64,000 nt of DNA from assembly GCA_022821495.1 (NCBI GenBank), contig JAJEDN010000054.1, positions 1 to 64,000 on the forward strand, written 5' to 3'. The translations under genes and the position numbers were made by a program. Position 1 is the stretch's first letter, and every line of letters starts with the position of its first letter. The notes under the pieces are model-generated. The model saw nothing but the letters and a program-made list of their open reading frames with translations, was not told where the DNA came from and searched no databases. This document shows positions 50,746 to 64,000 of the stretch, piece by piece. This DNA is from Candidatus Poribacteria bacterium. Its GTDB lineage: Bacteria; Poribacteria; WGA-4E; WGA-3G.

Positions 50746-51570
50746 ATGGTACAAGAACAGTCTAATCTTTGGGCAAAATCATATATCAATGATGGATACT
50801 TGATGCTTCCAGATCTCATTACATCGGAAGAATGCGACGCACTGAAAGTTGAAATGTTAAAGATCTTTCGTGGCGATTACTCACAAGACGCAATTCCACC
50901 GATGCCAGAGACAGCCAGTGAAATGGAAGTTTTAGACAGAATCATGTGTGTCGGCGAACCACACGTCTATAGTCCACTCGTCCGCCGTTACATCGAACAC
51001 CCCAAAATCTGCGAAGTCCTTCGCGTGATTGTTGGGGCACACATCCCGTTTTGGGATGGCGGTGTAAAATGTATGCAGTCAATGATGTTGAGTAAAGTAC
51101 CGGGACATACCGGGAACCCGTGGCACCAGGACGAACACCCAATCCCGACACGCGATAGATCGCTTGTGGGTGCGTGGATTACATTGGATGATACAACGAT
51201 TGAAAACGGATGCCTCTGGGTACTACCGAATAGCCATCGTTCCGGTGTAATCTATGATCGCGTACCACACGACAAACGCCATGAATTCGATAGTTGCCAC
51301 GAAGCCGTAGGTTTTGATGATACTCAGGAAATCCCGATTGAAATGCCAGCTGGCAGTGTTCTCTTTTTTAACGGTTACCTTTTACACCGCTCGAAAAAGA
51401 ATCGTAGCGATACATACCGACGCATTCTTGTGAGCCACTACTGTTCAACAGCATCATGGTTGGGGTGGAAAGGACAGCGGAATTACCGCGGAGTTATCAC
51501 TGTCGCTGGTGAAGATCCGTATATTGATGAAGGATATGTCACACCAAACACCTGGGCGCGATGGGAGTAG
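50746..51570 (+). CDS. phytanoyl-CoA dioxygenase (PhyH) family protein
   Basis: The 274-residue protein has iron ligands His127 and Asp129 (GNPWHQDEH) and distal His214 (YLLHRSKKNRSD), followed by a likely 2-oxoglutarate-binding Arg in YRRILVSHY. It belongs to a different PhyH subgroup from the pair at 21774 and 38054 and from its downstream neighbour. Substrate unknown. It follows the lipoprotein gene by 36 bases. Confidence 0.9.
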   Translation: MVQEQSNLWAKSYINDGYLMLPDLITSEECDALKVEMLKIFRGDYSQDAIPPMPETASEMEVLDRIMCVGEPHVYSPLVRRYIEHPKICEVLRVIVGAHIPFWDGGVKCMQSMMLSKVPGHTGNPWHQDEHPIPTRDRSLVGAWITLDDTTIENGCLWVLPNSHRSGVIYDRVPHDKRHEFDSCHEAVGFDDTQEIPIEMPAGSVLFFNGYLLHRSKKNRSDTYRRILVSHYCSTASWLGWKGQRNYRGVITVAGEDPYIDEGYVTPNTWARWE

Positions 51571-51580
51571 TGGATCAACT

Positions 51581-51609
51581 CGTAGCGGAAACGCACCTAA
51601 CCGAACCCG
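51581..51609 (+). repeat. partial copy of the recurring leader (copy E)
   Basis: CGTAGCGGAAACGCACCTAA, then CCGAACCC, follows directly after the PhyH stop. It matches the start of copy D at 59829 but lacks the AAGGAA site. Confidence 0.45.
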
Positions 51610-51637
51610 AAAGAAAGATTCTTGCCTTCTTTATTCT

Positions 51638-51677
51638 TTACGGAGTATCTGTAGTCCGTAATGAAATGGAGGACGGA
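51638..51677 (+). promoter_or_regulatory. alternative-hairpin leader before PhyH gene
   Basis: TCCGTAA at 51655-51661 can pair with TTACGGA at 51638-51644, or TCCGT can pair with ACGGA at 51673-51677 (with GTAG/CTAC extending it). The two hairpins exclude each other. The region lies between two PhyH genes. Confidence 0.35.
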
Positions 51678-51707
51678 TCTACGGGAATGTACTGTTTAAC
51701 CTAAAGG

Positions 51708-51738
51708 TACCTAACCGAACCGCAAGGAAATTTAAAAA
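51708..51738 (+). promoter_or_regulatory. recurring leader with ribosome-binding site (copy C)
   Basis: TACCTAACCGAACCGCAAGG, then AAATTTAAAAA, ends at the ATG of the PhyH gene at 51739. AAGGAAA is the ribosome-binding site. Confidence 0.6.
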
Positions 51739-52554
51739 ATGAAACTGACAGAACATCAGGTCAATTTTTTCAATACGTTTGGCTATCTCGCAATATATGG
51801 TATGTTTTCACCAAGCGAGATGGAATGGATTACGGAAGAATTTGAAATCTCGATCCAAGAATTCGGGGGCGGTAAGAACCATGATGGAACCAGTCGAACC
51901 ATGTTCGGCGGTCCTATAGAGCATCGTCCACGACTCTGTACCTTGCTCGATGATGAACGCGTCAAGGGACTTATCGGTGGCGTGATCGGTGAAGACTTCA
52001 ACTACGCTGGCGGTGATGGAAATTATTACTCTGGCGATACAGGTTGGCATCCTGATGGAGGTTGGGGGCAACTCTTTGCCTGTAAAGTAACTTTCTACCT
52101 TGATGATCTGACGAAAGACACCGGATGTTTGCGGGTTATCCCCGGCAGCCAGAATCCCACACATTTTGTTAGAGCCCAAAAGATTGATCCAAATCAATCA
52201 GAGGCACTCTACGGCATCCCGTCAAAAGACTTTCCAACCAGCATCGCCTTGGAAACTTCACCTGGCGATATTGTGATTTTTAATCACGATACCTATCACG
52301 CAGCGTTTGGGGGCGGCACTCGACGGCGGATGTTCACCATGAATTGCACACGACACTGCACAACTAAACCAGATTTAGAGACCTTGCATCAATATCTGAG
52401 CGTCCATTCAGCAGGTGGGTATCAGATTGATACAGGCGCGGGGATGTTCTTCCCAACGATGGTTGATACCGCAAATGAAAGCAGGAGAATCCACCTCCAG
52501 CAATGTAGTGACATTCACGATGAATTATTCCCACAATATGCTCGGCGTTCTTAG
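51739..52554 (+). CDS. phytanoyl-CoA dioxygenase (PhyH) family protein
   Basis: The 271-residue protein has iron ligands His104 and Asp106 (TGWHPDGGW) and distal His187 (DTYHAAFGGGTRRR). KVTFYLDDLTKDTGCLRVIPGSQNP is a typical PhyH core, here split across two sheets. It is the fourth PhyH protein in the window and clearly different from its neighbour at 50746. Leader copy C precedes it. Confidence 0.9.
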   Translation: MKLTEHQVNFFNTFGYLAIYGMFSPSEMEWITEEFEISIQEFGGGKNHDGTSRTMFGGPIEHRPRLCTLLDDERVKGLIGGVIGEDFNYAGGDGNYYSGDTGWHPDGGWGQLFACKVTFYLDDLTKDTGCLRVIPGSQNPTHFVRAQKIDPNQSEALYGIPSKDFPTSIALETSPGDIVIFNHDTYHAAFGGGTRRRMFTMNCTRHCTTKPDLETLHQYLSVHSAGGYQIDTGAGMFFPTMVDTANESRRIHLQQCSDIHDELFPQYARRS

Positions 52555-52786: not shown

Positions 52787-55246
52787 ATGAGAAGTATATC
52801 CATTGTTACACCCTCATTTGATAGGTACTTAGGATACATTAGGAAGGCTGTTATCTCAGCAGCATTCATCTACGGGATGAGCACGCTCTCTGCTGCCGAC
52901 ACACCACCGAAGGCACATACCCATTTACCTTCCAGTTCCATCGCAACGAGCGACGATGCCTTAGCGACCTTTTTTAATCCCTCAGGTCTCGGTACAGGAC
53001 GTAGTTTAAACTTATACTACCTGCGAACATATCAAAGTGATTGGGCAGGCGATGACGCTTTCTTCCTCGCTGTCCCTGGCGCGGGTTTCGGTATGGAATT
53101 TGTCACCGCCGATGCTGACACAGATTTCACACGCTACACACTCTCAGGTGGACGGCATCTGGGCAACTCGCTCTATTGGGGCACGAGTTACAGCTGGATG
53201 AATTCGGACGATAAAGGTTACGATGGATTCCGTTCCCTCTCCCTTGGCTTGATGTACCGACGACGTTACTTCTCAATCGGGGCGATCGCACGCGATCTCA
53301 ATCGTCCTAAACTACTTGGCGAAAAACTCGGACGCACCTACGACTTAGGATTAGCACTCCGTCCCGGAACATGGCGGACTACGCTCTCAATGGATGTGCA
53401 GAAAACACAAGGCATAGAGGATTTAAAATTCCGCTATGCTTTAGAGGTACGGCCTATCCGCGAACTGATGCTTCGCGGCACCTTAAATAGCGATTTGAGT
53501 TTCGATGTACGGTTCGGCATAAATATCGGAAACTGGGGATTCGGAACAGATAATGCCTTTGACAAAAACCGAGAGGCACAAACCGGGGTCGGCTATTTCC
53601 ATTTCTCCAATATCCGGAAAACGAAACCGGTCCCTCGCCGTCGTATGTTTCTCGATCTGCCGATGCGATCTCTTAAAGAGGTCCTCCCGATAGCAAAATG
53701 GGATGAAGATGTTGCGGGTGTCCTCATTCGTATCAATGGAAGTAGTTATGGGATGGCACAACTCCAAGAGATGTCAGATGCAATCTTGGATTTCAGGGAA
53801 TCCGGACGCGTCGTGCTCTGCTACCTCTCAAGTTGCTCCACCGGGGACTACATCGTCGCTACCACCTGCGACGGCATCTTGATTCACCCCTCCGCTGAAG
53901 TCCGATTGATCGGTTTGCGGACAGAACGTTCTTTTTACAAAGGCGCATTAGACCTCCTCGGCATCAGAGCGGATCTTGAACATATCGGCAAATACAAATC
54001 AGCATCCGAAGCATTTACAAGCCAAGAGATGTCTGAAGCACATCGCGAGATTCAGAATATCATTCTTGATGACCTCTACGAGCAACTTGTAGATGCAATC
54101 GCAGAAGGACGCGGATGGACACACGAAGACGTGAAAAAACGGATCAACGAGGGACCCTATACAGCACGGCAAGCACTTGCTACTGAACTCGTAGACCGAT
54201 CCGTCTATGAAGATGAACTACCGGATGTTGTAACCGAACTCACAAACGACTACACCGATTTGGTAACGTTAAGCGACTACGCAGAAAGCGGACTCGACAT
54301 ACAAGATTGGCAGGTACCACAGCCGAAGATCGCTATTATTGAGGCGAAAGGTTTGATGTTAACAGGCGATAGCTTCGTAGATCCATTTCTCGGCACACAA
54401 GTGATGGGTGCCGATACAATCACACGGATCGTTAGAGAGGTAAAAGATAACAATGACATCAAGGCAGTTGTGTTGCGGATTGACAGCGGTGGCGGACTCG
54501 TTACCGCAGCCGATACGATATGGCGTGAATTGGTGGGGCTTACACAGGTCAAACCGCTTGTCGTCTCAATGGGCGATGTTGCCGCATCAGGTGGGTATTA
54601 CATAGCAGCACCGGCAGATACCATCGTCGCCGAACCGGGAACGATTACCGGATCCATCGGCGTTATCAGCGGTAAGTATAGCTTCAAAGGACTCTATGAA
54701 AAACTCGGCATCAACAAAGAAATTCTCAAACGAGGCACACACGCCGATTTTTACTCAGACTACGGTGACTACCCACCGTCAGAAAAAGCAATCGTGCAGA
54801 AACAGATCGAGGAGATTTATGACGACTTTATCAAAAAAGTGGCACTCGGACGAACTGAGTTGACAGTGGAAGATGTGGATAGACTCGGACAAGGACGCAT
54901 CTGGTCAGGTAGGCAAGCACAGGAAAACGGACTTGTAGACCAATTAGGAGGTTTAAGTCTCGCGCTTGCAATCGCACGGGAACGCGCTGGACTCGGAGAA
55001 AAGTCATTTGAGATAGTCCAATTTCGAAAAAAAACGTGGCTGTCCCAAATATTCGGCACACTTCGGTTGCCATTTACAACTCGGCTCGAAAACAGCGATA
55101 CGGAGAATGTGGTAGCAAAAACCAAATCTCCGCTACAGTTTATTGCGCAGTATGACACATTGAACACGACCATGAGACTCCTAAATATAATTAGAAAACA
55201 GCGGTTTTTCCTCCTCATGCCTTATCATATAAGTTTAGCGAATTAA
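52787..55246 (+). CDS. sppA: SppA (signal peptide peptidase, protease IV) fused to an N-terminal barrel-like domain
   Basis: The 819-residue protein carries an SppA 67K-type tandem S49 core in residues about 300-770. Lys404 lies in IGKYKSASEAF, and Ser601 in DVAASGGYYIA, forming the expected Ser/Lys dyad; IDSGGG is also present. Residues about 45-275 instead look like an outer-membrane barrel (SDDALATFFNPSGLGTG, alternating aromatic strands), similar in style to PorV/UPF0164 proteins such as the one at 56056. Usual SppA proteins have about 600 residues. It degrades membrane-inserted signal peptides or other proteins; here it may be attached to the outer membrane. Confidence 0.85.
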   Translation: MRSISIVTPSFDRYLGYIRKAVISAAFIYGMSTLSAADTPPKAHTHLPSSSIATSDDALATFFNPSGLGTGRSLNLYYLRTYQSDWAGDDAFFLAVPGAGFGMEFVTADADTDFTRYTLSGGRHLGNSLYWGTSYSWMNSDDKGYDGFRSLSLGLMYRRRYFSIGAIARDLNRPKLLGEKLGRTYDLGLALRPGTWRTTLSMDVQKTQGIEDLKFRYALEVRPIRELMLRGTLNSDLSFDVRFGINIGNWGFGTDNAFDKNREAQTGVGYFHFSNIRKTKPVPRRRMFLDLPMRSLKEVLPIAKWDEDVAGVLIRINGSSYGMAQLQEMSDAILDFRESGRVVLCYLSSCSTGDYIVATTCDGILIHPSAEVRLIGLRTERSFYKGALDLLGIRADLEHIGKYKSASEAFTSQEMSEAHREIQNIILDDLYEQLVDAIAEGRGWTHEDVKKRINEGPYTARQALATELVDRSVYEDELPDVVTELTNDYTDLVTLSDYAESGLDIQDWQVPQPKIAIIEAKGLMLTGDSFVDPFLGTQVMGADTITRIVREVKDNNDIKAVVLRIDSGGGLVTAADTIWRELVGLTQVKPLVVSMGDVAASGGYYIAAPADTIVAEPGTITGSIGVISGKYSFKGLYEKLGINKEILKRGTHADFYSDYGDYPPSEKAIVQKQIEEIYDDFIKKVALGRTELTVEDVDRLGQGRIWSGRQAQENGLVDQLGGLSLALAIARERAGLGEKSFEIVQFRKKTWLSQIFGTLRLPFTTRLENSDTENVVAKTKSPLQFIAQYDTLNTTMRLLNIIRKQRFFLLMPYHISLAN

Positions 55247-55300: not shown

Positions 55301-55963
55301 ATGTTGTTCGCCAAAAACCATTCAACACTGCGCCAAAAAATGGTCCAAAACCAAATTGCAGCGCGTGGTATTCGTAACCCGCGGGTGCTTGCTGTCATGC
55401 GAAAGGTAGAACGACATCTATTTGTAAAACCTCAATACCTCAGTGTAGCATATAAAGATGGAGCACTACCGATCGATTGCGACCAAACAATCTCACAACC
55501 GTATATCGTTGCCCTGATGACAGACTTGTTGGAACTCACACCGACTTCAAAAGTACTTGAGATTGGCACAGGGTGCGGCTATCAGACGGCAATTCTCGCA
55601 GAGTTGGCAAAAGAAGTTTATTCTATTGAGATCATACCCTTGCTTGCTAAAAATGCGAAAGCACGGTTGGACGGACTCAACTACCAAAACGTCCACCTGA
55701 AAAAAGGGAATGGTCATTATGGCTGGCAAGAATACGCACCGTACGATGCAGTGCTCGTCGCAGCGGCACCTAAAGATATACCAAAACAACTCATTGAGCA
55801 ACTTGCCATGGGCGGTAGGATGGTGATACCGGTCGGTGGTTCCGAACAGAAACTCCTTTTAATCCAAAAAGGGCTTCAAAAGGTGGAGAACGCAATCCCG
55901 CCCCTCGAAACGACTGAAGTCATCCCTGTTCGCTTTGTACCTATGACAGGCAGGACAAAGTGA
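55301..55963 (+). CDS. pcm: protein-L-isoaspartate O-methyltransferase
   Basis: The 220-residue protein has all family marks: MVQNQIAARGIRNPRVL near the N-terminus, the SAM-binding motif EIGTGCGYQTAIL at about residues 85-97, and GGRMVIPVG near 178. It methylates L-isoaspartyl residues in damaged proteins to start their repair. It follows SppA by 54 bases and overlaps the next frame at 55960, so it is probably in an operon concerned with protein quality control. Confidence 0.95.
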   Translation: MLFAKNHSTLRQKMVQNQIAARGIRNPRVLAVMRKVERHLFVKPQYLSVAYKDGALPIDCDQTISQPYIVALMTDLLELTPTSKVLEIGTGCGYQTAILAELAKEVYSIEIIPLLAKNAKARLDGLNYQNVHLKKGNGHYGWQEYAPYDAVLVAAAPKDIPKQLIEQLAMGGRMVIPVGGSEQKLLLIQKGLQKVENAIPPLETTEVIPVRFVPMTGRTK

Positions 55964-56055
55964 ATCTACCATCAAAATCTTACCACCGATCACAATCCTG
56001 CGGGTGTCGGTTCGGAAAAATCAACTGCTTGATCCGCTATAAAGGAAATAATAAC

Positions 56056-57018
56056 TTGAAACATATATTTCAACTCATTCTATCTATCACTCTATTTTTT
56101 CCAGTTGTTACTTTCGCTGCATTTAACGACATCGGTGTTGGCGCGATACCTCTCGGTTTAGGTGGAGCATTCGTTGCACTCGCCGATGATAGCAACGCAG
56201 CGAATTACAATGCCGCAGGTTTAGGCTATATCGACGCTATCCACCTCGGTGGAACACACGCACAGCGTTTTAATGGACTCATTACTTATAACGCTATCAG
56301 CGGCATTATCCCTGTCGGGAAAATAGGTGCGATCGGAGCGAGTCTCGGTATCCTGGCAGAAGATTCTGAAATTTATCGGGAACAGATAGTACGTATCTCT
56401 TACGGCAACGCACTTTTCAAACAATTCGCGATTGGTGCAAATCTGAAACTTTTCGGAACCTCTTTTGATGAAGCGAACGAATTCGTCGCCGAGAACCCGT
56501 ATTTTGCTCAAACATCCAGCTCAGCCGTCTCTTTTGATCTGGGGGTGATTGCAAAACCATTCAAAAGCCTTAGCCTCGGTGCGTCCGCAGAGAATTTACT
56601 GCCTGCAGATATGAGTATCTCCAATACCCCCATTGACGACACACCTATAGCACCGGTACCAATGAACATTCGCGTAGGCTTGGCATACAGACTTGAATCT
56701 ATCGCAGAGATGAGCACACAAGGTGCGGCAGTCAGCAATTTATTGAAAGGTAGTTTAGGGACGCTCGAGATTGCATCTCGTAATGATGCCACTTATATCC
56801 GCACAGGCATAGAAATCTGGTTGAATAAATCCATTGCTCTCCGTGGTGGTTACGGGATAAAAAATGGCAGCGATTCCGCCACAACGCTAAGTTTTGGTGG
56901 AAGTGCTAAGCTCCCAATCAGTAGCACCTCTCTCCAACTTGATTACGGATTTCAGCTGCTAAGTGGGGACTTTCAAGACAATATAACACAACGGTTTTCC
57001 GTCAATCTACTACTCTAA
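56056..57018 (+). CDS. PorV/PorQ-like outer-membrane protein (UPF0164-type)
   Basis: From TTG 56056 (AAAGGAAA upstream) the product has 320 residues with a signal peptide (KHIFQLILSITLFFPVVTFA). The mature start FNDIGVGAIPLGLGGAFVAL, with ADDSNAANYNAAGLG, is characteristic of PorV/PorQ and UPF0164 outer-membrane barrels. PorV is a type IX secretion shuttle that receives cargo C-terminal domains. The in-frame codons back to 55960 overlap pcm and lack a signal peptide. The next gene encodes a FlgD-like-domain protein, consistent with T9SS cargo. Confidence 0.8.
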   Translation: MKHIFQLILSITLFFPVVTFAAFNDIGVGAIPLGLGGAFVALADDSNAANYNAAGLGYIDAIHLGGTHAQRFNGLITYNAISGIIPVGKIGAIGASLGILAEDSEIYREQIVRISYGNALFKQFAIGANLKLFGTSFDEANEFVAENPYFAQTSSSAVSFDLGVIAKPFKSLSLGASAENLLPADMSISNTPIDDTPIAPVPMNIRVGLAYRLESIAEMSTQGAAVSNLLKGSLGTLEIASRNDATYIRTGIEIWLNKSIALRGGYGIKNGSDSATTLSFGGSAKLPISSTSLQLDYGFQLLSGDFQDNITQRFSVNLLL

Positions 57019-57033
57019 AGAAAGATTTTTGAA

Positions 57034-58431
57034 ATGAAAAACACAGCGATTATTTTCCTACTTATCGTTAATCTATTGATCGCCATAAACGGTTATACTG
57101 CGGTTACTTCTGTCGGTGAGATAAATGTCGTTGGCCAAACAAAAGGTATTGTGCCTGCCAGTTCAACGGTGCCTTTGATTGTAACGCTTATAATAGACAG
57201 ATCACTTGCAGAACCGGGGGAAGAAATTAAGGTTATTGAAATCGCAATGCCACCTGGATTCCTGACACAATCGTCCTACTTCAAAGGCATCTTGCGGGAC
57301 CGGAACCCAATCGTAGCGCGAGCTGTCGTCTCGGGTGGAAATACCCTGCGCGTTGAACTCGCAGATGTCATCAACGATTTCCAAAATTCAATCTATGAAA
57401 TTACCTTTGACTGCCAGACACCGAACACTCTTACATTAGAGGCAGTCTTCAGGGTGCGCTTGCGCAATCTTGATGACGCGCCTATCGGTGAATTTATCCG
57501 ACCCGGACAAGCAGACGGGAAACTCAACAACGACGACTTTACATTACAGGTAATTCCCAATGTGCCGCCTGACCCAGTTATAGGTTTTACGGCTGAAGCC
57601 GACACAACCGGCGAAAATGATGTGACGCTCCGTTGGGAAAAATCAGATGACCCGGATGTCAACGGTTACCTCATCTACAGAGACAAGGAAGATCCTATTG
57701 ATGTCAAAGACCGTTCCTCAACCACGTTCCGTGAAGTGAACGTTCTCCCGGGCGATCATACGTATCAGATCACAGCTTATAAAATACCTTCCTTGCAATC
57801 GGAACGTTCCGCGATACAGTTTGTGACCGTATCAGAGGATGAAGCCGCGCCCGAACCACCAACGATGCTCAGCATTACCACCTCAAACGACGGCGTGGAA
57901 ATTACGTGGAAACCGAGTGCCAGTCGTGATGTGATAACGTATCAAGTTCAGTTCAGGGCATCAGGAACGGGTGAACTCCAACCGCTTCCTAATGGTGAAA
58001 TAGAGGCAAAACCAGAAGACGAACGTACAGGATATACGTTTATTGATACCCAAACATTGCCTATAGGCAGTTTTACTTATGCGGTCATCGCAATTGATGA
58101 AGCAGATAATAAATCCGCACCACTACAGAAAAAACTGCGCATCTTTGATAAACCGTATCCAAATCCATTCACGCCACTCTCTTTAGACCAAGATTTCAAT
58201 CAGGTCGTATTCCCCGCGCGTTCAATTGAGGATGCTTCAGGTGAATTCACAGTACTCATCTACGACATTGATGGAATGCTTGTTAAAACCTTAACAGCAC
58301 TGCCCGGTGAGACAGAATTGACATGGGATGGTCGTGATGAAGCAGGAGAAATTATGGAAAGCGGCGTTTATATTTACCAACTTCAGGTAGGAGAAAATTT
58401 TAAAACAGGGACGCTAATCCTCGCCAAATAA
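57034..58431 (+). CDS. secreted protein with fibronectin type III and FlgD-like C-terminal domain
   Basis: The 465-residue protein has a signal peptide (residues 1-21), an N-terminal beta-rich domain (residues 25-170), two fibronectin type III-like domains (about 180-275 and 285-370: VTLRWEKSDDPDVNGYLIYR, VEITWKPSASRDVITYQVQ) and a C-terminal domain KPYPNPFTPLSLDQ ... WDGRDEAGEIMESGVYIYQL of the FlgD type. It starts 15 bases after the PorV-like gene, with AAAGAAAG as site. Probable T9SS-like surface or secreted protein. Confidence 0.85.
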   Translation: MKNTAIIFLLIVNLLIAINGYTAVTSVGEINVVGQTKGIVPASSTVPLIVTLIIDRSLAEPGEEIKVIEIAMPPGFLTQSSYFKGILRDRNPIVARAVVSGGNTLRVELADVINDFQNSIYEITFDCQTPNTLTLEAVFRVRLRNLDDAPIGEFIRPGQADGKLNNDDFTLQVIPNVPPDPVIGFTAEADTTGENDVTLRWEKSDDPDVNGYLIYRDKEDPIDVKDRSSTTFREVNVLPGDHTYQITAYKIPSLQSERSAIQFVTVSEDEAAPEPPTMLSITTSNDGVEITWKPSASRDVITYQVQFRASGTGELQPLPNGEIEAKPEDERTGYTFIDTQTLPIGSFTYAVIAIDEADNKSAPLQKKLRIFDKPYPNPFTPLSLDQDFNQVVFPARSIEDASGEFTVLIYDIDGMLVKTLTALPGETELTWDGRDEAGEIMESGVYIYQLQVGENFKTGTLILAK

Positions 58432-58778: not shown

Positions 58779-59822
58779 ATGAACAAATTTGAGTCACGCC
58801 CATCATGGGGGATAACCCTACTCGCAATCACCGGTATCTTAGCAATTGTGCTACCGGCATCAGGAAATTGGAATATCCTACAAGAACGCGACCCTGAGGT
58901 TAGGGATTACATGTCCATCATTTTTACGAGCGAACAAAACGGATGGACAGTCGGTGTTTCGCCGTTTAACTTAGACTATCCCGGCTTTATCGGATATACG
59001 ACAGATGGCGGAGCAACATGGAGTAGAGCAGAGATTGATATTAAAGACCAACTCAACAGTCTCTATTTTTTAGACGACAAACACGGCTGGGCAATTGGCG
59101 AAAATGGTATGATTGCTGCCACTACCAACGGCAGAGATTGGGAACTTCAAACAAGTAAAGTCGGCAATGGACTTAATGGCATCTACTTCACCAATAAGGA
59201 TGTAGGGTTTGCAGTTGGCGCAAACGATACCATTCTCTCAACGACAACCGGTGGACGTTCTTGGAAAATTCTTCAAGGTGGGCAACTCGGCGCCGTTGGT
59301 GATGATGAAGCAACGATGTACAGTGCCATTCAGTTTATCAACGAATCCACAGGTTGGGTCGCGGGTGTCCACGTCGTCCCACAAGTGAGTCAAAATAGCG
59401 TGATCCAGAAGACAACAGATGGCGGACAGAGTTGGGAGGCACAAGAAACTGGCGCGGAAGATGTGCTTAAAGATATCTTTTTCTTAGATGAGAAGCACGG
59501 TTGGGCGGTCGGTGAGAACGGTCTTATCCTTCATACCAGTAACGGTGGTGGAAAATGGGCAATACAGATGAGCAACACCGAAGAAACACTGAGAAGCATC
59601 CAATTCGCTGATCAATATATGGGCTGGGCGGTCGGCGGAGAACTCGGTGTCGGTGTGATTGTACATACCAATAACGGTGGTAAGGATTGGGAAGTCCAGG
59701 ACTTGGGTGATCTCAAGGCAGGTATGTTAGAGGTTGGGAAGATCCGATTGAATAGCGTCTTTATTTTAGGCAAACAGGTCTGGTTAACAGGCGGAAATGG
59801 TGTAATATTGCAAGGGAAGTAA
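58779..59822 (+). CDS. secreted YCF48/sialidase-like beta-propeller protein
   Basis: The 347-residue protein has a signal peptide (about residues 1-29, ending PASG). It is built of repeats with GWAIGENGMIAAT or GWAVGENGLILHT and T-DGG-x-SW motifs, about six blades, as in YCF48/HCF136 and BNR proteins. GGAGAT precedes the ATG. Relatives help assemble other proteins, but a role here is unknown. The propeller resembles that of the sigma fusion at 28350 in its Asp-box pattern. Confidence 0.8.
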   Translation: MNKFESRPSWGITLLAITGILAIVLPASGNWNILQERDPEVRDYMSIIFTSEQNGWTVGVSPFNLDYPGFIGYTTDGGATWSRAEIDIKDQLNSLYFLDDKHGWAIGENGMIAATTNGRDWELQTSKVGNGLNGIYFTNKDVGFAVGANDTILSTTTGGRSWKILQGGQLGAVGDDEATMYSAIQFINESTGWVAGVHVVPQVSQNSVIQKTTDGGQSWEAQETGAEDVLKDIFFLDEKHGWAVGENGLILHTSNGGGKWAIQMSNTEETLRSIQFADQYMGWAVGGELGVGVIVHTNNGGKDWEVQDLGDLKAGMLEVGKIRLNSVFILGKQVWLTGGNGVILQGK

Positions 59823-59889: not shown

Positions 59890-61062
59890 TTGGAAACATC
59901 CACATTCGCAACGCGGATGAGTCGATTGGGAACAGAGTCCGCATTTGAGGTACTTGCCAAAGCCAAACAACTTGAGGCGCAAGGCAAGGACATCATCCAC
60001 TTAGAGATCGGACAACCGGATTTCCCAACACCGATTAATATTATTGAAGCAGCTTACAAAGCCATGAAGGAAGGACATACCGGGTATTGTCCATCCGCAG
60101 GTGTACCAGCGTTTCGAGAAGTCGTCGCGCAGCATATAACGGACACACGGGGTATTACAATACACCCTGACGAGGTCACGGTAACCCCCGGTGCAAAGCC
60201 GATCATCTTCTTCACCATCCTCGCTTTAATAGATGATGGTGATGAGGTGATTTATCCTGAACCGGGTTTTCCTGTTTATGAATCCGTTATTGACTTCATC
60301 GGTGGAAAAGCGATACCGCTGCCACTTCGTGAGGAGGTTGATTTCCGGTTCCGACTCGAAGACCTCGCGGACGCAATCTCCGATCGGACGAAACTCCTAA
60401 TTCTCAACTCACCGCAGAATCCAACAGGCGGCACACTCACCTCTGAAGACCTTGATGCTATTGCTGAACTCGCCCAGAAACACAATTTTTATGTCTTGAC
60501 AGATGAAGTTTACTCTCGAATCCTCTATGAGGGCAAACACCACAGCGTCCTCAGCCTCCCCGGTATGAAGGAACGGACAATTCTAATCGAAGGACACTCT
60601 AAAACCTACGCAATGACAGGATGGCGATTGGGGTACGGTATCGCTCCCCAACCAATTGCTGATAAAATTACGCAGTTAACTATTAACTCAAACTCCTGCA
60701 CTGCTACCTTCACACAACTCGCAGGGATAGAAGCCCTTGCAGGTCCGCAAATTTTTGTGACGGAAATGGTCGCAGAATTTCAGAAGCGGCGTGATGCAAT
60801 TGTAGATGGATTGAATGCAATTGACGGGATCAGTTGTATAAAGCCCCTGGGTTCATTTTATGTGTTTCCGAATGTAACACAATTGCCCCTCTCATGTGAA
60901 GATCTTGCCGATTACATCATGGAAGTGGCAGAGGTCGCACTTTTACCGGGAACCGCCTTCGGTAAGTACGGTGATGGTTACCTACGGCTTTCATACGCTA
61001 ATTCGTTGGAAAATATCCAAGAGGCATTAGGCAGAATTGAAACTGCTATTTCAAAATTGTAG
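59890..61062 (+). CDS. PLP-dependent class I aminotransferase (aspartate aminotransferase-like)
   Basis: The 390-residue protein has PLP-binding Lys238 in EGHSKTYAMTGWR, Asn177 and Asp205 around PLP (SPQNPTGG, LTDEVYSR), and the standard fold-type I N-terminus (LEIGQPDFPTP). The closest well-known enzymes are aspartate and related aminotransferases, though substrate choice is not secure. TTG 59890 is selected because GTGGAGGT lies 6 bases upstream. It lies just before homoserine kinase, so a link to the aspartate-family pathway is plausible. Confidence 0.9.
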   Translation: METSTFATRMSRLGTESAFEVLAKAKQLEAQGKDIIHLEIGQPDFPTPINIIEAAYKAMKEGHTGYCPSAGVPAFREVVAQHITDTRGITIHPDEVTVTPGAKPIIFFTILALIDDGDEVIYPEPGFPVYESVIDFIGGKAIPLPLREEVDFRFRLEDLADAISDRTKLLILNSPQNPTGGTLTSEDLDAIAELAQKHNFYVLTDEVYSRILYEGKHHSVLSLPGMKERTILIEGHSKTYAMTGWRLGYGIAPQPIADKITQLTINSNSCTATFTQLAGIEALAGPQIFVTEMVAEFQKRRDAIVDGLNAIDGISCIKPLGSFYVFPNVTQLPLSCEDLADYIMEVAEVALLPGTAFGKYGDGYLRLSYANSLENIQEALGRIETAISKL

Positions 61063-61161: not shown

Positions 61162-62091
61162 ATGCCTCCTACTTTTAACCAAAAAGCTATCGCACGGATT
61201 CCAGCAAGCACAACAAACCTCGGGCCCGGGTTTGACGTACTCGGGCTTGCGTTGCAACTCTACAGCACAGTCACGCTGGAAACCACTAAAACCGACACGC
61301 AAGTTCTTGTTAGTGGCGTAGACGCGGATAAAATACCGGGCACGCCAGAGCATATCGCATTTCAAGCAGTAGAACTTGTCTTCAATCGAAGCGGCACTAA
61401 ACCTCCAAAAGGCTTCAAATTGCAGATAGAGAATGGAATACCAGCGATTCGTGGATTGGGTGGTAGTGGAACGGCGATTCTTGGCGGGTTACTCACCGCA
61501 AATCTGCTATGCGACTCTCCATTTTCTGACATAGAACTCCTTAACTTTGCAACAGAATTAGAGGGACACCCAGACAATGTCGCTGCCTCATTGTATGGCG
61601 GCATCGTTGTCTCAGCACTGGAGGATGCACAAGTGCATACCGTCCGGTTGGAATGTCCACCAGTGCTTTCGGTCGTGCTTGCAATTCCAGATTTTCCACT
61701 ATCGACAGAACAAGCGCGAGGCGTGCTGCCCACATCAGTAAGTTTCGCAGATGCAATATATAATACGAGTCGAAGTACCCTGTTAATTGCCAGTATTGCT
61801 ACAGGTCAATTTGAGATGTTACCTGTCGCTATGAAAGACAGGTTACATCAGCCATACCGTGCCTCGCTAATTCCAGGATTTGACGATGTCGCAAAAGCCG
61901 CTACCGCTGCTGGGGCACTTAGCGTTGCGTTGAGTGGCGCGGGACCGACAGTCGCAGCCTACTGCTTAGACCATACAGATCAGGTGGCTGAACAGATGAA
62001 ATCTGCCTTCAAAAAACACCAGATTGTATCTGATATCAGAATTCTAAAGCCGGATGTTAATGGCGCGAGCGTTCATATTGAGAATATCTGA
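61162..62091 (+). CDS. thrB: homoserine kinase
   Basis: The 309-residue GHMP kinase begins AIARIPASTTNLGPGFDVLGLAL, the homoserine kinase pattern for substrate binding, split here across residues 9-31. The GHMP phosphate loop is PAIRGLGGSGTAILGG (about 95-110), and ALSGAGPTVAA is the C-terminal motif. ThrB phosphorylates homoserine in threonine biosynthesis. ATG 61162 aligns with the family start. It follows the aminotransferase by about 100 bases. Confidence 0.95.
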   Translation: MPPTFNQKAIARIPASTTNLGPGFDVLGLALQLYSTVTLETTKTDTQVLVSGVDADKIPGTPEHIAFQAVELVFNRSGTKPPKGFKLQIENGIPAIRGLGGSGTAILGGLLTANLLCDSPFSDIELLNFATELEGHPDNVAASLYGGIVVSALEDAQVHTVRLECPPVLSVVLAIPDFPLSTEQARGVLPTSVSFADAIYNTSRSTLLIASIATGQFEMLPVAMKDRLHQPYRASLIPGFDDVAKAATAAGALSVALSGAGPTVAAYCLDHTDQVAEQMKSAFKKHQIVSDIRILKPDVNGASVHIENI

Positions 62092-62187
62092 CAATCAACA
62101 ATTAAACCTTGATTCGACAATTACCGTCTAAAAGGTTTTCCTTTAGAAATCTTCTCTTGTAACCTAACATTGAAAACCGATAAAAAG

Positions 62188-64000
62188 ATGTCAAATTTTC
62201 ATACAGAAAACATTGCATCAATACTGAACAAATTCGACACCAACATGGACCAAGGGTTGAGCGCGGAGACTCTTGGAAAAGCGAGAGCACGGCATGGCAA
62301 GAACGAGTTTGCTTCTAAAAAAAATGCCTTCCCTCTTAAGGCGTTTCTGATGTCGCTGCTGACATGGCGCATTATCGTTTTAGCACTCATGACAACAATC
62401 CTGATTATTTCCTTTGTCAATGGTGCAAATAGCATTAGTCTCCATACAGCGGGTATCGTCGGCGTAGTTTTAGTTATTCATATCGCGTATGCATGGACAA
62501 CGGAGTACCGTATTCGCAATCGTGATGCCAGCATCAACAAACTCATGGTGCATAGTATCAAAGTCATTCGACAAGGAAAACTTGAAAAATGCGCACTGGA
62601 GGACATTGTCCCTGGCGATTTACTCTCATTCACTGCAGGAGACTACGTGCCTGCTGATGCCAGAATTATTGAATCTGAAGGGCTTACGATCGACGAATCC
62701 GGACTCTTTGGAACAGAGGCGCCAGTAGAAAAAACAAGCGTAGATATTCCAGACCCTGCTTTACCACCGGAAAAACAGAGAAACATGGCATTCGGTGGGA
62801 CATACATCGTAGCTGGACATGGAGCCGCAATCGTTGTAAAAACAGGAAAACAGATAGAAATATGGAAACAACGTCAAGATGCCCGTCCAATACCTATAGC
62901 GAATACCTTCGCTGAAAACGAAATCGGAGATTTACAGACGATTATAAAGATAACTGGTATGATCATCGCAGCTATAGCCGTAGCAATCGCATGGTGGTTT
63001 GAATACCAGAATCAGGTTACTGATTGGTACGCCTTAATCCATCTGGGTTTGTTATTTGCCGTTGCCGCAGCACCACACGATGTTATTAGATTGCTCCGCT
63101 TGTCATTTTCTAAACATGCCCAAAAATTGATGGAAAAAGGGCTCACATTACGCAATTCACGCAGCCTTGAGAAATTGAGTCGCATTACCACCTTTTGTGC
63201 AAATGAAACTGGGCTTGCAACGACACGAGCACTAACGATCTCTCACCTCTTCGTTGATGAACAACTCATTGATGGCAACACGTGGCAAACATGGTTGGAT
63301 ACCCTGCAGGACCTGACACCTACAGAACGACAAAAAGCGGTCGAAGCGATACCAATTGGCGGAAAAATTCCACAAGGTGCCCCACACTTGATATTCACTG
63401 CGGGTCTCGGCACCTCTGGCGGGCAGCGTCCGCATGACTCCGGCACTGCCAATATCACGGGAACTTCAGCAGCCTCAGACGATGAAGGAACACCTTCACC
63501 CAAGACCGCCATCGAAAAGAACATGGAAAGCCTCGGCTATCAACTCGATAGTGTCAAAACGAAACTCCCCTTGGTGGACGCATACCCTTCAACGCGTACC
63601 TATGGATACCAGATGCAAGTGTTTGAGTCCGCACCGGAAGATTATCTCAATATCATTTTTGGAGATGCACGGACAATACTCAATACCTGCGGTTCTGTAC
63701 TTATTAACGGAGAAATTACGCCCCTACTCAACGGTAAGCACGAAATGTACCATGAAATCATAGACTATCTGCTTAATACCAAGGCTCAGGTCTATGGGGT
63801 CGCCTTTCACTCCTCTAATGTTATTCTGAAACCGCAAGAGATGGAAAATAATCCTATCTTTTTAGGATTTATGAGTTTCTCGGTCAGCAATGACCAAGAG
63901 ACGAAAACAATTCTGAAATCCAGTCTTGACACGGGGCTTAAAATTATCCTCATCTCCGAAAACCAAGAGCAAGAAACTGTTGACGTAGCAAAAGATCTCG
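62188..64000 (+). CDS. P-type ATPase homologue lacking catalytic motifs (partial, runs off window)
   Basis: An open frame of 604 codons from ATG 62188 to the window edge aligns with P-type cation ATPases (calcium/sodium-type): LVPGD-like IVPGDLLSFTAGDYVPADARI, APVEK, and membrane pairs at about 50-85 and 255-305. The key residues are changed. The phosphorylation motif DKTGTLT is NETGLAT (Asn339), TGES is FGTE (174-177), the membrane motif PEGLP is PHDVI (296-300), KGA is FGD and TGD is SEN near the end. The frame has no stop, so it looks maintained. It is presumably a non-catalytic paralogue. Confidence 0.8.
   Translation, partial: MSNFHTENIASILNKFDTNMDQGLSAETLGKARARHGKNEFASKKNAFPLKAFLMSLLTWRIIVLALMTTILIISFVNGANSISLHTAGIVGVVLVIHIAYAWTTEYRIRNRDASINKLMVHSIKVIRQGKLEKCALEDIVPGDLLSFTAGDYVPADARIIESEGLTIDESGLFGTEAPVEKTSVDIPDPALPPEKQRNMAFGGTYIVAGHGAAIVVKTGKQIEIWKQRQDARPIPIANTFAENEIGDLQTIIKITGMIIAAIAVAIAWWFEYQNQVTDWYALIHLGLLFAVAAAPHDVIRLLRLSFSKHAQKLMEKGLTLRNSRSLEKLSRITTFCANETGLATTRALTISHLFVDEQLIDGNTWQTWLDTLQDLTPTERQKAVEAIPIGGKIPQGAPHLIFTAGLGTSGGQRPHDSGTANITGTSAASDDEGTPSPKTAIEKNMESLGYQLDSVKTKLPLVDAYPSTRTYGYQMQVFESAPEDYLNIIFGDARTILNTCGSVLINGEITPLLNGKHEMYHEIIDYLLNTKAQVYGVAFHSSNVILKPQEMENNPIFLGFMSFSVSNDQETKTILKSSLDTGLKIILISENQEQETVDVAKDL

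Follow-up and report, generated by a model that had tools for sequence, protein, structure and literature searches.

A very probable pseudoenzyme family derived from P2A-type ATPases in the Poribacteria

Poribacteria are best known from sponges. On a contig of 94,916 bases from one Candidatus Poribacteria genome (JAJEDN010000054.1) lies a gene with the complete architecture of a P-type ATPase in which the motifs for phosphorylation and dephosphorylation are altered. This raises the question of whether the gene is decaying, still catalytic by other means, or maintained for a different purpose. The window analysed is the first 64,000 nucleotides of the contig, and the gene, on the plus strand, starts at 62188 and crosses the window edge to end at contig position 65055. 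A first-pass annotation had described a frame of at least 604 codons without a stop. When the contig is read onward, the frame extends to 955 codons from the methionine, with the stop at contig position 65055; the coordinates and motif readings given earlier are correct, as is the start methionine at 62188, which is conserved. Because the gene is kept intact though its catalytic and ion-binding residues are replaced, its product, here termed the pseudo-pump, most likely has a job other than pumping.

The gene and its altered motifs within the window are as follows, with residues numbered in protein P0001, in which residue 1 is at position 62170:

62188–64000, plus strand: P2A-type pseudo-ATPase gene, first 604 of 955 codons (frame, Pfam matches, fold; conserved start methionine)
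62707–62718, plus strand: A-domain TGES position, reading FGTE (residues 180–183; TGES Glu kept in 1 of 52 homologues)
63073–63087, plus strand: M4 PEGLP position, reading PHDVI (residues 302–306)
63202–63222, plus strand: phosphorylation motif DKTGTLT position, reading NETGLAT (residues 345–351; Lys kept in 1 of 52 homologues, Asp in 30 of 52)
63658–63666, plus strand: N-domain KGA position, reading FGD (residues 497–499; Lys kept in 0 of 52)
63955–63963, plus strand: P-domain TGD position, reading SEN (residues 596–598; Gly kept in 0 of 52, with Asp or Glu instead in 50 of 52)

Past the window edge, GDGVND is changed to GQNRTD (residues 669–674) and the M6 motif NxxTD to QxxST (residues 768–772). 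At the Ca-site positions of M4, M5 and M6, His, Thr, Gln and Thr replace Glu, Asn, Asn and Asp.

The architecture around these positions is that of a type II (P2A, SPCA/LMCA1-like) P-type ATPase, with A, P and N domains and membrane helices all present. The protein matches E1-E2_ATPase, Cation_ATPase_C and Cation_ATPase_N above the Pfam cut-offs, and its best NCBIfam match is the PMR1-type Ca-ATPase model, far below the curated cut-off. The family profile aligns along the entire Listeria LMCA1 sequence. Both the domain order and the whole-length homology of a P2A Ca-ATPase are found. A first structural model, built from 30 pseudo sequences only, reached a pLDDT of 44 and a pTM of 0.31 and was discarded. 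A second was made for a relative of the 92% class, L059, which is 90% identical to the window protein, and the addition of nine active pumps from IMG/VR contigs to the alignment of pseudo sequences helped it to a pLDDT of 82 and a pTM of 0.75. Its whole chain matches SPCA1, SERCA, LMCA1 and MgtA structures; the best match by rmsd is hSPCA1 in the CaE1 state (8iwp), at 3.4 Å over 852 residues with TM scores of 0.79/0.84. The model supports a P-type ATPase fold for the pseudo-pump, and it is read for the fold only, its conformation carrying no evidential weight.

With the window protein as query, a match is found in 81 of 84 Poribacteria genomes. The match in G002 is an active pump with DKTGT (L118) and not the pseudo form, and a family profile search added partial pseudo-pump copies in G003 and G007. 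The pseudo form is present in 82 of the 84 genomes as a single-copy family; the two without it are G002, which belongs to another family, and G029, which is 81% complete. All 37 other genomes of the source genus have an open frame, as do nearly all those of the phylum. Among matches outside Poribacteria, the 20 loci that were fetched look active by simple motif patterns, and in a second sample of 394 genomes the best 30 matches keep all five motifs tested, a result that leaves room for rarer pseudo cases.

Loss of the catalytic residues extends through this family. Each of 22 active type II ATPases keeps 13 of 13 catalytic positions, while the 52 poribacterial homologues keep between 1 and 6. 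DKTGT is kept in none of the 52 (the protein here reads NETGL), and no homologue at the locus retains DKTGTLT. In what we take to be SERCA numbering (K352, K515, R560, G626, D627, K684, D703, N706 and D707), none of the 52 has K515, G626 or D703, and K352, like the TGES Glu, survives in a single homologue; the M5 Asn and M6 Asp are absent from all 52. Five losses mark the family as a whole: those of the Lys in DKTGT, the Lys in KGA, the Gly in TGD, the first Asp in GDGxND and the Glu in TGES. Most members of the source genus have Asn at the phosphorylation position, but the Asp persists elsewhere, for example in sister genus g3 and in most of families f2, f3 and f7. Since it still stands in 30 of the 52, it appears to have been lost later than the other catalytic residues, and repeatedly. 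The earlier claim that all core motifs are lost holds for the source protein and does not extend to the phosphorylation Asp across the family.

These replacements occur in a gene under purifying selection. Of 22 close pairs, 21 give a pairwise dN/dS (NG86) of 0.09–0.18; the other, with a dS of 0.003, is uninformative. By domain, values are 0.06–0.10 for the A domain and 0.01–0.09 for the two parts of the P domain; the N-terminal part and the N domain have higher ones. Among the 215 positions of the P domain, conservation is lowest at the former D627 and N706, while the fold residues are fixed. In the same genomes, mean identity is 0.70 for the pseudo-pump compared to 0.83 for CopA and 0.77 for the homoserine kinase ThrB, which means that the pseudo-pump evolves faster than either. 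Relaxed catalytic sites combined with a constrained fold are what a pseudoenzyme, and not a pseudogene, predicts. The first-pass suggestion of selection on a frame-intact pseudoenzyme is strongly supported by the open frames, by dN/dS values well away from 1 and by the lack of any DKTGTLT homologue at the locus; neither of the outcomes named in that annotation as refuting it was observed. Two hallmarks of a conserved pseudoenzyme, homology to an enzyme family without its catalytic residues and purifying selection, are found here, and it can be said with high confidence that the pseudo-pump is one.

In a tree of 74 proteins, one branch divides the pseudo group from the active group (SH-aLRT 99). 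The same split is recovered after 194 columns conserved in active pumps are dropped (UFBoot 100; SH-aLRT 100 or 89.9, according to how the file is rooted). Given the long branches and the differences in composition, these trees favour a single origin of the family and do not prove it. Separate losses, clade by clade, are not favoured, as the split falls on one branch even without the active-conserved columns. The family would be vertically inherited, having probably arisen once from a P2A-type Ca-ATPase early in Poribacteria.

The closest characterized enzymes in form are the P2A Ca-ATPases LMCA1 (Listeria lmo0841) and SPCA1/PMR1 (ATP2C1). They resemble the pseudo-pump in whole-length profile, domain order and predicted fold, but identity is only 18–20%, and all the catalytic motifs and the M5 and M6 Ca-site residues are replaced in the pseudo-pump. 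Within the phylum, the basal genomes G001 and G002 are the only ones in which active pumps of type II were seen (L114, L115 and L118/L186), and the SPCA-like ones among them fall in the P2A group. Unlike the pseudo-pump, all three have intact TGES and DKTGT, as well as KGA, TGD and GDGxND where the sequence reaches. G001 carries both an active pump and the pseudo-pump, and G002 the active pump alone. Most poribacterial genomes have exactly two P-type ATPases as counted by PF00122, the pseudo-pump and a heavy-metal (CopA) type, and the heavy-metal enzymes examined have intact motifs by simple patterns. The first-pass annotation had also proposed a regulator of a true pump. As regards type II pumps this is unsupported: since most genomes have only the CopA-type enzyme besides the pseudo-pump, the idea that it regulates a pump like itself does not hold in most of the phylum.

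For a working comparison, the nearest precedent appears to be TMEM94/ERMA of animals, a P-type ATPase fold without TGES, although it is an endoplasmic reticulum protein with motifs other than those of the pseudo-pump and its status is disputed. One group finds no ATPase activity, no Mg binding and no TGES (PMC12134183), while another claims that it is a Mg pump (PMC13322241). TMEM94 is absent from the best 60 sequence hits and from the 50 structural entries, and no specific sequence relation appeared in these lists. No bacterial precedent for a P-type pseudoenzyme was found in the open-licence literature searched.

The genomic surroundings of the pseudo-pump are also conserved. Upstream of it, in this order, lie:

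58779–59822, plus strand: Ycf48-like (PSII_BNR) beta-propeller, part of the conserved block (domain match; synteny)
59890–61062, plus strand: class I/II aminotransferase, part of the same block (domain match; synteny)
61162–62091, plus strand: homoserine kinase ThrB, immediate upstream neighbour with a gap of 96 bases (TIGR00191 above cut-off; synteny)

The pseudo-pump follows the homoserine kinase directly and on the same strand in families f1, f2, f4, f6, f7 and f8 and in part of f3, and in those families the aminotransferase and the propeller usually precede the kinase. Genus g8, L111 and G001 do not have the block intact. The move of g8 out of the thrB block is the only genus-wide relocation seen; in this genus (family f3; L093–L097) the pseudo-pump is retained in another conserved neighbourhood (clusters c14, c18, c19 and c20). 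The downstream side, with a DUF6785 protein and UppS, is conserved across less divergence than the upstream block. The former is a large DUF6785/DUF6784 membrane protein (L003:5074–7053, minus strand; contig 65073–67052); its gene converges on the pseudo-pump and is a conserved neighbour of it in family f1. The shared gene order suggests a functional or expression link of the pseudo-pump to the upstream block, and it may reflect co-expression only.

Further upstream in the window, 55960–58431 encodes a PorV/PorQ-family-like protein (NF033709, E 2.8e-22, below cut-off) and, after it, a protein whose fn3 and FlgD_ig tail comes near the T9SS type A sorting domain (TIGR04183, scoring 22.9 where the cut-off is 23). 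The pair is conserved upstream of the block in many Poribacteria and hints at type IX-like secretion. By eye, an 819-residue open reading frame at 52787–55246 resembles a tandem SppA-type signal peptide peptidase with an N-terminal outer-membrane-like region, and two adjacent frames at 50746–52554 resemble phytanoyl-CoA dioxygenase family proteins.

What, then, might the protein do? Judged from sequence, the protein has kept the pump architecture and lost the residues that serve to bind ATP, to phosphorylate the aspartate and to dephosphorylate it, along with most of those that coordinate ions. Such a protein would no longer run the Post-Albers cycle, and it is very likely that it does not pump; in the many members where the phosphorylation Asp and D707 persist, some residual phosphate or metal chemistry is conceivable. 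A sensor or scaffold role, as suggested in the first-pass annotation, is an inference. In the preferred reading the pseudo-pump would be a non-pumping membrane scaffold or receptor. A partner would bind to the headpiece made of A and P, where constraint on the cytosolic side is strongest, and any ligand would act through binding and not through hydrolysis. Candidate partners would be ThrB, the aminotransferase and the Ycf48-like propeller, and not another type II pump. The chances for and against a scaffold or receptor mechanism are judged roughly equal, and the same balance applies to the whole statement of a P2A-derived pseudoenzyme family of one origin acting in this way.

A strict ligand sensor, in which a bound nucleotide, metal or metabolite would make the fold switch conformation and signal to a partner, with no hydrolysis involved, is unlikely. 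The fold is kept, D707 is retained in 51 of 52 homologues, a Lys or Arg occupies the K684 position in 51 of 52, and the gene adjoins metabolic enzymes, all of which would suit a sensor. However, the nucleotide contacts of the N domain are gone, with the KGA Lys never present and R560 retained in 9 of 52, and this domain is among the least constrained parts of the protein.

A passive channel, uniporter or lipid-handling protein is likewise improbable. Here ATP coupling would be gone, and the membrane domain would move an ion or lipid down its gradient. The M5–M6 helices belong to the better conserved parts of the family, nearly all homologues have the M4 proline, and the membrane domain of TMEM94 holds lipid-like density (PMC12134183). 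Yet the residues that would coordinate cations in M4, M5 and M6 have been replaced, and not alike in all clades, so no single conserved ion path is visible, and a simple pore does not require the cytosolic A and P cores to be strongly constrained.

That the protein is still catalytic with a rewired chemistry, for example as a phosphatase or as a pump with another nucleophile, is very unlikely. An acid that might take part does replace the TGD Gly almost throughout, the DKTGT Lys is Glu in 43 of 52 homologues, and the phosphorylation Asp survives in more than half of them. Nevertheless, the nucleophile position is Asn in the source genus, the first Asp of GDGxND is never kept, the D627 and N706 positions drift freely, and the site holds no other nucleophile that the whole family conserves.

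A decaying gene or an assembly artefact is rejected as the least probable reading: a frame break within a run of G at the former phosphorylation motif (CFDPRG) of G006 (L117, near 6987; genome 64% complete) may be an assembly error or real decay, but the other full-length copies keep long open frames across the phylum and in independent assemblies (several of them single-contig), with the low dN/dS given above, and single TAA/TAG flags fall upstream of the conserved start methionine, leaving one long open frame per flagged locus.

Naming by family match alone would mislabel this gene as a calcium pump in Poribacteria. Unlike the well-known pseudokinases and pseudophosphatases, P-type ATPases without activity have hardly been described, TMEM94 being the one prominent, contested case. 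It is proposed, tentatively, that a phylum-wide receptor or scaffold was made from a whole P2A pump beside ThrB, with a headpiece that would signal by partner or ligand binding and no longer by phosphorylation, and that it would represent an undescribed class of bacterial P-type pseudo-ATPases. The family shows which parts of the P-type fold stay for non-catalytic reasons, and its phylum-wide spread, graded motif loss and conserved neighbourhood make the role of this fold without ATP directly testable.
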